Assembly: GCA_022821265.1 (NCBI GenBank)
Contig: JAJEDW010000069.1
Coordinates: 1-46,696 of the forward strand
Length of the DNA stretch: 46,696 nucleotides
DNA from: Acidobacteriota bacterium
GTDB lineage: Bacteria > Acidobacteriota > Terriglobia > 20CM-2-55-15
Direction of reading: 5' to 3'
A model generated the notes under the pieces. That model was not told where the DNA came from, did not search any database, and saw only the letters and a list, made by a program, of their open reading frames with translations. Shown one piece after another: positions 40,054-42,199 of this stretch. The first letter of the stretch is position 1. Each line of letters starts with the position of its first letter. The position numbers and the translations under genes are program-made.

Positions 40054-40995
40054 ATGACGACGGCGCCCGTCACGATTCGTCCGCTCGAAGAGAGAGATCT
40101 GGACGCCGCGGACCGAATCGTGCGGCTGGCGTTCGGTACGTTCAACGGATTGTCCAACCCGCTGGAGTTCATGGGAGACGCCGGGTACGTCCATACCCGC
40201 TGGAGGGCGCGCCCCGATTCCGCGTTCGCCGCCGAGGTCGGAGGACGTCTGGCCGGGTCCAACTTCGCCGCGCGATGGGGCACGTTCGGTTTCTTCGGAC
40301 CGCTTTCGATCGATCCCGAGTTCTGGAACCGGGGCTACGCCGGCGCCTTGATCGAACCGGTGATCGCCCGGTTCGAAAGCTGGGGTATCACTCACGCCGG
40401 ACTCTTCACGCACGCCCAGAGTCCCAAGCATATCGGCCTGTACCAGAAGTTCGGCTTTCGACCGCGATCGCTGACCCTCATTCTCGAGAAGACGCCCCGC
40501 GGCGCCGGCGACCCGGGCGGCTGGACACGTTATTCCCGGCTGGAAACCCGGCAGCGACGGGAAGCCATGGACGTCTGCCGGCGGTTGACGGACCGCGTCC
40601 ATCCGGGTCTGGACGCCACGTCCGAGATCGAGTCGATCCGGCGCCAATCGCTGGGCGACACGATCCTGCTGACAGGCGGCGCGATCGACGGTGTCGCCGC
40701 CTGCCACGCCGGCGCCGGCAGCGAGGCCGGCAGCGGCGCCGTCTACGTCAAGTTCGGGGCGGTCCGCCCCGGCGCTCGCGGCGCGTTCCGGCGGCTGCTG
40801 GCGGCCACCGAGGCCTTTGCCGATTCCATCGGCGCCGTGCGCATCGTCGCCGGCGTCAACACGGCGCGTGAGGAAGCCTACGAGGAAATGCTGACGGCCG
40901 GATTTCGCGTGCTGCGCACCGGCATCGCCATGCACCGGCCCAATGCCCCGGGATTCAATCGGCCAGGCGTGTTCGCGATCGACGACTGGCGTTGA
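40054..40995 (+). CDS. GNAT family N-acetyltransferase
   Basis: This 313-residue protein has an N-terminal GNAT domain (VTIRPLEERDLDAADRIVRL; LSIDPEFWNRGYAGALIEPV as the acetyl-CoA loop; GLYQKFGFRPRSL). A second, weaker GNAT-like half follows (VYVKFGAVRPGARGAFRRLL; VNTAREEAYEEMLTAGFRVL). It may be a two-domain duplicate in which only the first binds cofactor. The substrate is unknown. The ATG at 40054 starts the domain cleanly. Confidence 0.82.
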   Translation: MTTAPVTIRPLEERDLDAADRIVRLAFGTFNGLSNPLEFMGDAGYVHTRWRARPDSAFAAEVGGRLAGSNFAARWGTFGFFGPLSIDPEFWNRGYAGALIEPVIARFESWGITHAGLFTHAQSPKHIGLYQKFGFRPRSLTLILEKTPRGAGDPGGWTRYSRLETRQRREAMDVCRRLTDRVHPGLDATSEIESIRRQSLGDTILLTGGAIDGVAACHAGAGSEAGSGAVYVKFGAVRPGARGAFRRLLAATEAFADSIGAVRIVAGVNTAREEAYEEMLTAGFRVLRTGIAMHRPNAPGFNRPGVFAIDDWR

Positions 40996-41116
40996 CGGGC
41001 GCCATCCGGACAGGACGGCGCTCTCGCGTTCGACAATCGCGCCGAGCCCTGGAACGACGCCGGCCGCTTCGCTTTACTGTGGCGGATCCGACCGAGCCGC
41101 ACTATGCTATTTGGGC

Positions 41117-41282
41117 CCTAGGAGCCTGTGGTGAAACTCCGCGTCGCACCGAGACCGGTGAGGCATCCCGTCCGGCAAGGCGCGAGAAGGGAGCATATTC
41201 CCGATATGTGACCGACGAGCAACGCAGTCCAGACGGGACGCGTCGCCGGTCGAATGCAGCGGGTTCAACACAGGCTCCCAGG
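41117..41282. repeat. Long imperfect inverted repeat (hairpin) in a 307-bp intergenic region
   Basis: The gap 40996-41302 holds no gene that I can support. Inside it, 41117-41175 pairs with 41229-41282. An exact 10-bp arm pair is GGAGCCTGTG (41121-41130) and CACAGGCTCC (41269-41278). Further inside, tcccgtc (41166-41172) pairs with gacggga (41232-41238), and gaccgg (41153-41158) pairs with ccggtc (41246-41251). A 53-base apical part joins the arms. Three explanations are open: a structured leader of the hydrolase gene, a small mobile repeat, or a fragment of a group II intron-like RNA. Confidence 0.6.
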
Positions 41283-41302: not shown

Positions 41303-42199
41303 ATGAAACGGACACGGACCGACGCCCGACAACGCTTCCGGAAAACCGCGACGGCTTTCGCGGCGGCGCTTCTGCTTGCGCCGGCGGCCACGGCGCAGGA
41401 CATCCCGGTTCAACGTGACATCGTCTACGGCAACGTCGACGGCATGACGCTGGGGCTGGACCTCTACGTGCCGCCCGGCGTCGAGGCGCCCCCGCTGGTC
41501 GTGTTCGTCCACGGCGGCGCGTGGCGCGCCGGCACCAAGGACCGCGCCCCGATGGTGTTCCCGGAGAACGGCTTCGCGATGGCCAGCCTGGACTTCCGTC
41601 AATCCGGGGACGCTCGGTTTCCCGCCATGGTCCATGACATCAAGGGAGCGATCCGGTTCCTGCGGTCCCACGCCGACGACTACGGCTACAACGCCGAGAA
41701 GATCGCGATCACGGGCCAGTCCTCGGGCGGGCACTTGGCGGCGCTGGTCGGCGTCACGAACGGACACCCCGAGCTGGAAGGCAACGTCGGCGGACACGAG
41801 GGCGTATCCTCCGACATCCAGGCGATCATCAGTTACTTCGGCGCGTCCGACCTGACGACGATCCTGGACCAGTCGACTCCGTTCGGCATGAACATGCGCC
41901 CGCCGGCGCTGGAGCAACTGCTGGGCGCTCTTCCCGAGGACGCCCCCGAGATCGCGCGGTTGGCGAGCCCGGTCTACCACGTCGACGCCGACGATCCGCC
42001 GCTGTTGCTGTTCCACGGGGACCGCGACCCCCAAATGCCGATCAACCAGGCACACCAGCTCGAAGGGGAATACGAAGCGCTGGGACTGGACGTCGACTTC
42101 GACACCGTGCACGGATCCGCCCACGGCGGGCCGGGGTTCTTCGATGCGCTGCACCTGCCGCCCGCCATCGAATTCCTGCAACGAACGATCGGGGAGTAG
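41303..42199 (+). CDS. Secreted alpha/beta hydrolase (BD-FAE/esterase type)
   Basis: This 298-residue protein has a signal peptide (ATAFAAALLLAPAATA) and an alpha/beta-hydrolase domain. The oxyanion-hole HGGAW is at 70-74, and the nucleophile S140 lies in GQSSGG. The acid is probably the aspartate in FHGDRDPQMP, and the histidine lies in VHGSAHGGPGF. The pattern fits esterases of the BD-FAE/lipase group. AGGAG lies 8 bases before the ATG. The region just upstream contains the long hairpin. Confidence 0.88.
   Translation: MKRTRTDARQRFRKTATAFAAALLLAPAATAQDIPVQRDIVYGNVDGMTLGLDLYVPPGVEAPPLVVFVHGGAWRAGTKDRAPMVFPENGFAMASLDFRQSGDARFPAMVHDIKGAIRFLRSHADDYGYNAEKIAITGQSSGGHLAALVGVTNGHPELEGNVGGHEGVSSDIQAIISYFGASDLTTILDQSTPFGMNMRPPALEQLLGALPEDAPEIARLASPVYHVDADDPPLLLFHGDRDPQMPINQAHQLEGEYEALGLDVDFDTVHGSAHGGPGFFDALHLPPAIEFLQRTIGE

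Follow-up and report, generated by a model that had tools for sequence, protein, structure and literature searches.

The imperfect hairpin in front of an esterase gene in the window (the whole 46,696-nucleotide stretch of Acidobacteriota DNA that was analysed) is a mobile element, neither a gene-specific leader nor an intron, and very probably represents a copy of a miniature, enzyme-less, MITE-like transposable element of about 166 bp. The element is repeated, insertionally polymorphic between sister species, ends in inverted repeats and is flanked by a duplicated 4-bp CTAN target. What sets it apart from usual MITEs is its apical part (the tip): many phyla retain it on elements with exchanged ends, an unusual combination for this class.

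The region 41117–41282 folds into a single long imperfect hairpin (RNA fold, −92.1 kcal/mol). None of 200 dinucleotide shuffles was as stable (mean −59.5, sd 4.1, z = −8.0), in agreement with the original prediction of pairing far above chance, whose coordinates were also right to within one base: the element copy including both 4-bp targets covers 41118–41281 and lies 21 bases upstream of the esterase ATG at 41303 (a gap of 20 bases when counted from the hairpin 41117–41282). The window copy is 92.8% identical to the genus consensus and contains small indels. The gene downstream encodes a BD-FAE / alpha-beta hydrolase esterase (Pfam E = 2.4e-59). The features of the locus are as follows:

40054–40995, plus strand: upstream gene, GNAT acetyltransferase, outside the element (Pfam, gene finder)
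41118–41281, plus strand: whole copy of the non-autonomous hairpin mobile element with both 4-bp targets (fold, copy alignment)
41118–41121, no strand: left 4-bp target copy, CTAG (copy alignment, empty sites)
41122–41140, plus strand: left terminal inverted repeat GAGCCTGTGGTGAAACTCC, genus consensus GAGCCTGTGGTGAAACCCC (copy alignment, end-motif search)
41174–41230, plus strand: apical conserved motif GGCAAGGCGCGAGAAGGGAGCATA...TATGTGACCGACGAGCAACGCAGTCC, common to many phyla, with regular G·A mismatch steps and a covarying pair
41259–41277, minus strand: right terminal inverted repeat, degenerate in the window copy (copy alignment, end-motif search)
41278–41281, no strand: right target copy, CCAG in the window and CTAG in many other copies (copy alignment)
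41303–42199, plus strand: downstream gene, BD-FAE-type esterase, outside the element (Pfam)

The hairpin is not a single-copy structure, as it would have had to be under the refuting condition of the original prediction. The window's own draft genome (G000; 3.88 Mb, 351 contigs, about 86% complete) contains it at no fewer than 40 places with 82–100% identity, several of them clipped by contig ends, 40 of 90 candidates having been scored; 30 other listed matches pair an arm with the opposite arm. The sister species (G001) carries 21 element places, and a DNA search of 101 genomes gave matches in four, G000 among them. The end motif GGAGCCTGTGGTGAAACC (up to three mismatches) occurs 50 times forward and 44 times in reverse, against 0 and 2 for the reversed-pattern control, some of the matches being lone ends. 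In 30 G000 copies aligned with 40-base flanks, the boundaries are abrupt (CTAGGAGCCTGTGGTGAAACCCC...GGGGTTTCACCACAGGCTCCTAG) and the flanks unrelated; the copies are thus dispersed and sharp-ended, as those of MITEs are. The lone ends in L041, L043, L050 and L051 (G000 contigs C248, C207, C169 and C209) now seem to be parts of genes, contributing either a GFTTGS tail at the C-terminus or, in order, a TAG stop, GGAG and a start codon (GTG or ATG); the gene with the element-end tail in L041 is GAPDH-like by eye.

Comparison of the two species points to movement. Of 33 G000 copies, 29 have 200 or more bases of flank (the other four were left out); for two of the 29, L013 and L027, the same flanks enclose an element in G001. 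The joined flanks of 12 other G000 sites were searched in G001, of which 11 gave a locus and one (L011) none. A single CTAN marks the empty site in seven of the 11 loci, best at L012, where CTAA occurs once in G001 versus CTAA...CTAA around the copy; the others are L005, L020 and L025 (CTAG), L010 and L018 (CTAC), and L024 (CTAT). The site of L016 reads CCAT, that of L008 aligns poorly beyond CTAG, that of L014 retains a 13-base remnant of the element end, and that of the window copy (L001) has diverged flanks with neither CTAG nor element. The remnant at the L014 site, CGCAGGCTCCTAT (L301, G001:C51:157007–157271), is a footprint of excision or deletion. Terminal inverted repeats and a target-site duplication are both present. 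The option of a miniature mobile element, which the original prediction had listed among others, is therefore borne out by the copies, their sharp ends, the target duplication and the insertional polymorphism, and membership in the general MITE class is well supported at the level of sequence.

The insertions mostly spare the genes around them. Neighbouring genes were called by a codon-usage gene finder trained on the window and tabulated for 54 copies (34 of 40 G000 places and 20 of 21 G001 places, excluding six G000 places that run off a contig and the incomplete G001 match L076); six of these copies have a gene on one side only. In 40 of the 54 copies the 4-bp target copy forms the stop codon of the neighbouring gene, which stays intact. 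CTAG is very rare outside the elements, with 38 sites in 233 kb of G000 and G001 loci (about 218 kb minus repeats), 12 of them coding, 13 intergenic and 13 at stops. The overlap with stop codons is largely explained by this rarity of CTAG inside genes, that is, by target choice and tolerance, and elements that land on stop codons spare their hosts. A special targeting of stop codons was considered and rejected (40 of 54 copies versus 13 of 26 unoccupied non-coding CTAG sites, Fisher p = 0.04). Genes that end at the element are antisense to its conserved strand in 32 cases and sense in nine (p = 0.0004), and co-directional neighbours are antisense in 30 and sense in 10 (p = 0.002). A hand tally of genes ending at the element in other lineages, with several copies per genome, gives 10 antisense versus two sense.

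The likely source of the enzyme is an IS1182-like insertion sequence. G001 carries an IS of about 1.48 kb (L095) with CTAG on both sides and the ends CAGCCTGTGGTGCAATT.../...CCACCACGGGCTG; its end (CAGCCTGTGGTG..) is of the same type as the hairpin end and agrees with it at 11 of the 12 outer bases. The transposase (457 aa) has DUF772 and DDE domains. A second case is found in a Thermoanaerobaculia chromosome (G268; 4,634,923 bp), where the right end of two IS copies (L317 and L321), CAGCCCGTGGCAGAAGTC, is identical to that genome's hairpin ends at 18 of 18 positions, and the left end, CAGCCCGTGGTGAAAGTC, is that of another G268 hairpin subfamily (L246 and L248). These copies are flanked by CTAT/CTAT and CTAC/CTAC, respectively. 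A third copy (L323) has one difference at the right end, six at the left end and unmatched flanks (CTAG and CTGC), and a fourth (L324) lacks such an end. The L317 and L095 transposases are 58% identical, and the best NCBIfam model for the transposases of both G001 and G268 is IS1182 (E = 3.4e-49 and 2.5e-51), with scores of 168 and 175 bits that lie below its cut-off of 270, Pfam DUF772 being above its own. Ends common with an autonomous transposon, another property of MITEs, are thus present in G268 (18/18 at the right end) and nearly so in G001 (11 of 12 outer bases). Positions 1–600 of L317 hold a repeat array with a 61-bp period, CRISPR-like by eye, which adjoins the IS1182-like insertion.

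Elsewhere the pairing of hairpin and transposase is seldom seen. No DDE_Tnp_1 gene or relative of the L095 transposase was found in the G000 draft (about 86% complete). Among 13 further hairpin-bearing genomes, nine gave no DUF772 match; of the four that did, only G268 has hairpin ends at its transposase, none having been found at the transposases of G482, G484 and G486 (the IS ends of G486, a Myxococcales genome, are not those of its hairpins), so that 12 of the 13 yielded no transposase with matching ends. In the verrucomicrobial carrier G477, visual inspection of the first 100 of 158 end matches revealed no autonomous partner, and the one tested frame beside an extra end had no Pfam match. 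Mobilization by an IS1182-like enzyme has good support in G268 and is likely in the genus of the window. An IS1182-like DDE transposase would probably act in trans, recognizing the hairpin ends of about 18 bp, excising the hairpin and joining it to CTAN sites, with duplication of the target.

The tip RAGGCGCGASGAGGGAGCATA...TGACCGASGAGCAACG recurs in hairpins of many phyla with differing terminal repeats. A degenerate tip pattern, run over one genome each of 84,980 species, matched at least 106 stretches, 80 of which were made into loci (81 matches). By record title, the matches listed include Acidobacteria, Verrucomicrobia, Myxococcales, Bacteroidetes, Elusimicrobia, Nitrospinota, Aminicenantes, Gemmatimonadetes, Actinomycetota and Eremiobacterota, mostly as metagenome bins and for some phyla as one bin, so that an individual assignment may reflect a binning error; Phaeodactylibacter luteus, whose copy lies in L127, is a culturable carrier and a named strain. 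The search itself imposes conservation on the fixed letters of the pattern, but the 5′ positions outside it (RAGGCGCGASGAG) are nearly constant too. The ends vary with the lineage (CTAG-GAGCCTGTGGTGAAAC, CTAG-GCCGTGTTTTCAAAAT, TTAG-AGCTTTTTGGGATTT, CTAG-TGCATCAACCCGTAA and TTAG-GGCCCGCGGCGGAATAA), and the verrucomicrobial contig L186 carries two end types with the same tip. Automatic arm tracing of 62 elements placed YTAN at both traced ends in 19, and 16 of these span 161–168 bp (the other three 150, 171 and 176 bp); in the remaining 43, exact-seed tracing mostly ended early, or the element differs. The distance from target to tip is 70–72 nt in 12 of 14 hand-picked lineages, and 66 and 68 nt in L154 and L162. 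Further candidate target tetramers exist in L120, L141 and L177, where the traced arm ends pick the one used; L246 was entered in this distance table with no pattern match, and a Psychrobacter match (L112) with no visible hairpin was dropped. Two tips about 20 bases apart and inverted (L328, G717:C61:213465–213643) suggest compound elements, and L116 and L117 are longer forms with a second, inverted tip-like stretch.

A covariance model of the tip hairpin (R1) matches at least 71 of 396 genomes and at least 50 of 211 genera of the window's phylum, with at most 11 candidates scored per genome. In the phylum of G477, 22 of 288 genomes match, and G268 has 28 matches at E ≤ 0.01. By a hand tally from the GC skew of 20 sampled stretches, 19 of these 28 have the conserved strand opposite to the leading one (p = 0.09). 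Neither the exact nor the degenerate core occurred in viral contigs, and a distant blastn search of plasmids and phages gave no match. A prior description of the element was not found in the literature searched, outside which most subscription papers lay, and a text search for core strings matched one 11-base string, only in works unrelated by title.

Compensatory changes, which the original prediction had named as a check, are present both within the genus and across phyla. Within the genus, 21 double changes were counted versus 8.4 in permuted data (maximum 16 in 100). Across phyla, the central S-S position pairs in 75 of 81 pattern matches (C-G 32, G-C 30, T·G 10, A-T 2 and T-A 1); these counts include related copies from the same genome and a G-C row, L141, that is one base out of register. 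An alignment of 36 of 42 non-redundant cores with 21 hand-drawn pairs (A1) was also analysed, leaving out L141, L158, L166, L171, L182 and L189 for odd indels or near-duplication. In A1, 87.9% of the cells pair, two-sided changes occupy 135 cells versus 49 ± 5 when shuffled (0 of 500 as high), and the covariation score is 0.417, versus 0.121 for shuffled and 0.05–0.11 for slid controls; the structure was drawn from the same alignment, which favours it in the test. Less marked is the excess of doubly changed pairs (12 versus 10.2, reached in 24 of 500). The outer helix (eight of nine pairs) and the second (three of four) carry most of the signal; the tip stem has one of eight, a value that is low partly because the pattern fixed this stem. 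Between the Watson-Crick pairs, GA/AG mismatch steps are present in 33–36 of the 36 rows; the pattern fixed several of their letters, but the free ones (A11, G13, G17, A18, G20 and A22) are equally constant. In three rows, one mismatch step is swapped for Watson-Crick TC/GA. The mismatch steps may form sheared pairs.

In 37 young copies (at least 95.5% identical to the consensus) the tip diverges by 1.7% and the arms by 3.0% (p = 0.001), whereas in 17 old copies the values are 6.8% and 7.4% (p = 0.64); the young/old cut and the tip limits were chosen by the analyst and the copies are related, which makes these p-values too kind. As old copies decay evenly and young ones keep the tip, selection seems to act on propagation and not on behalf of host genes. 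The retention of the tip in the spreading lineage fits a propagation role and speaks against a host function such as a leader. Among 14 stretches of G477 with odd end spacing or single ends, eight (L335–L340, L343 and L345) are short tip-less copies with the same ends; one deletion junction is common to L335, L336 and L337, and a second to L339 and L340. Copies with a recurring junction have either moved or arisen by repeated deletion, and movement may not depend strictly on the tip. Since some copies lack the tip, and 12 of 13 genomes yielded no transposase with matching ends, the task of the tip is one that we infer.

MITEs of bacterial insertion sequences are short, lack a transposase, and have terminal inverted repeats, a target duplication and many copies, all of which the hairpin shares. 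The interiors of MITEs are usually lineage-specific and are regarded as deletion leftovers; the hairpin, in contrast, has a structured tip common to many phyla while its ends differ, at a distance of 70–72 nt in 12 of 14 lineages. Conservation of about 50 nt across phyla with compensatory changes, the ends being replaced, suggests that transposases read the structure of the hairpin besides the sequence of its ends, or that a small mobile RNA has escaped notice. Tentatively, the tip might be a structure for recognition, in cruciform or single-stranded DNA or in RNA, which would help the element to spread and would not serve host genes. More speculatively, all these hairpins could belong to one very widespread family that has the same structured tip throughout and arms of constant length, and that persists by swapping its terminal repeats to suit the resident CTAN/YTAR-targeting transposase; such a non-coding transposon parasite would use its motif, with the GA/GA mismatch steps and the covarying pair, as a recognition structure or an RNA in transposition.

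The orientation data bear on a rather unlikely reading, in which the hairpins are structured non-coding RNAs on mobile elements, the conserved strand being transcribed, the tip binding a widespread protein, much as other RNAs encoded by transposons do, and the transposase only moving the element. Genes ending at the element are mostly antisense (32 versus 9, and 10 versus 2 in other lineages), which does not favour transcription of that strand, and the one copy scanned had no sigma-70-like match; yet a strand-specific tip, covariation, nearly constant G·A mismatch steps and similar dimensions in many lineages are what such RNAs would display. A protein partner is not evident near the copies. 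When the open frames lying up to 4 kb away in the 80 loci were compared by all-against-all blastp, they formed 17 clusters of at least three loci, some of which consist of short frames that lie near the element or cross it. The representatives of nine clusters that were run against Pfam contained neither a transposase nor an evident partner gene; those with a match are genes of the host with ordinary functions (sigma-54 activator, histidine kinases, ABC transporters, secretin, biotin carboxylase and an N-methylation-motif protein), and one had no match.

REP/BIME, ERIC, Correia and Rickettsia palindromic elements resemble the hairpin in being dispersed palindromes, and are confined to narrower groups. 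Movement of REP/BIME-like palindromes as single-stranded DNA by a tyrosine (RAYT/IS200-type) transposase would agree with the long palindrome and with the strand tendency in G268 (19/28, p = 0.09), but that replication tendency is weak, and the target duplication and the ends common with a DDE transposon make this very improbable. Mobilization by an IS1182-like enzyme remains the preferred reading. The IS1182 family (NCBIfam NF033551; here DUF772 and DDE_Tnp_1) resembles the hairpin in its near-identical ends of about 18 bp with CTAN on both sides in G001 and G268, and differs from it in possessing a transposase. One published member, ISPse1, is tabulated with 16-bp ends and a 4-bp duplication (PMC3281130). 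Another relative, IS1272, is reported to insert at stem-loops and to replace them without a target duplication (PMC5678879), which likewise links an IS1182-family enzyme with stem-loop DNA. The same paper gives the support for a still less probable explanation, that the hairpins are immobile hot-spots or landing sites for IS1182 relatives such as IS1272, replaced as inverted repeats with no target duplication. Here, unlike the IS1272 case as given there, the stem-loop itself is inserted and its target duplicated, with no replacement seen at the sites examined; moreover, the hairpin is insertionally polymorphic, seven of 11 empty sites hold one CTAN, and three IS1182-like elements have CTAN on both sides.

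The least probable explanation is a cis-acting, riboswitch-like structured mRNA leader controlling the esterase: the very stable fold, 21 bases before the ATG and downstream of a TATGCTAT stretch that the sister species has too, would suit it, but the same hairpin occurs at 40 scored places and is missing before the orthologous esterase, flanking genes that are co-directional are mostly antisense to the conserved strand (30 versus 10), aged copies keep the tip no better than the arms, and Rfam gives no match. At the window locus in G001 (L306), the GNAT ortholog (82% identity) and the esterase ortholog (92%) have no hairpin between them, so the leader considered in the original prediction is not supported as a function of this esterase gene; conservation before orthologous genes, as expected of a riboswitch-type element, is absent in the one sister species examined. 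The remaining proposal, a fragment of a group II intron-like RNA, fares no better: no Rfam model reached its gathering score in the window, in line with the original prediction, which could not match the hairpin to a known riboswitch, and at E ≤ 10 the hairpin matched only the MIR918 miRNA model at chance level (E = 0.64). Rfam searches of 12 further loci gave no match at the element, the matches being tRNA and Acido-Lenti-1 only, both about 1 kb away. The mobile element accounts for a recurring hairpin that, looked at one gene at a time, would be taken for a leader or a terminator.

The consensus element has one open frame per strand, from a GTG after GGAG to the TAG of the far target copy, of about 50 aa each. 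A selected coding role for these frames was considered and rejected: the reverse frame is kept in 46 of 46 and the forward frame in 43 of 46 indel-free copies, and random change would keep 91% and 85%, respectively, among copies that are related, so selection is not claimed. The window copy is an old, decaying one that may still sit in the 5′ leader of the esterase by accident. The promoter scan gave no match at TATGCTAT (41103–41110); this stretch, directly upstream of the insertion and also present before the sister-species esterase (L306), is a candidate −10 element.
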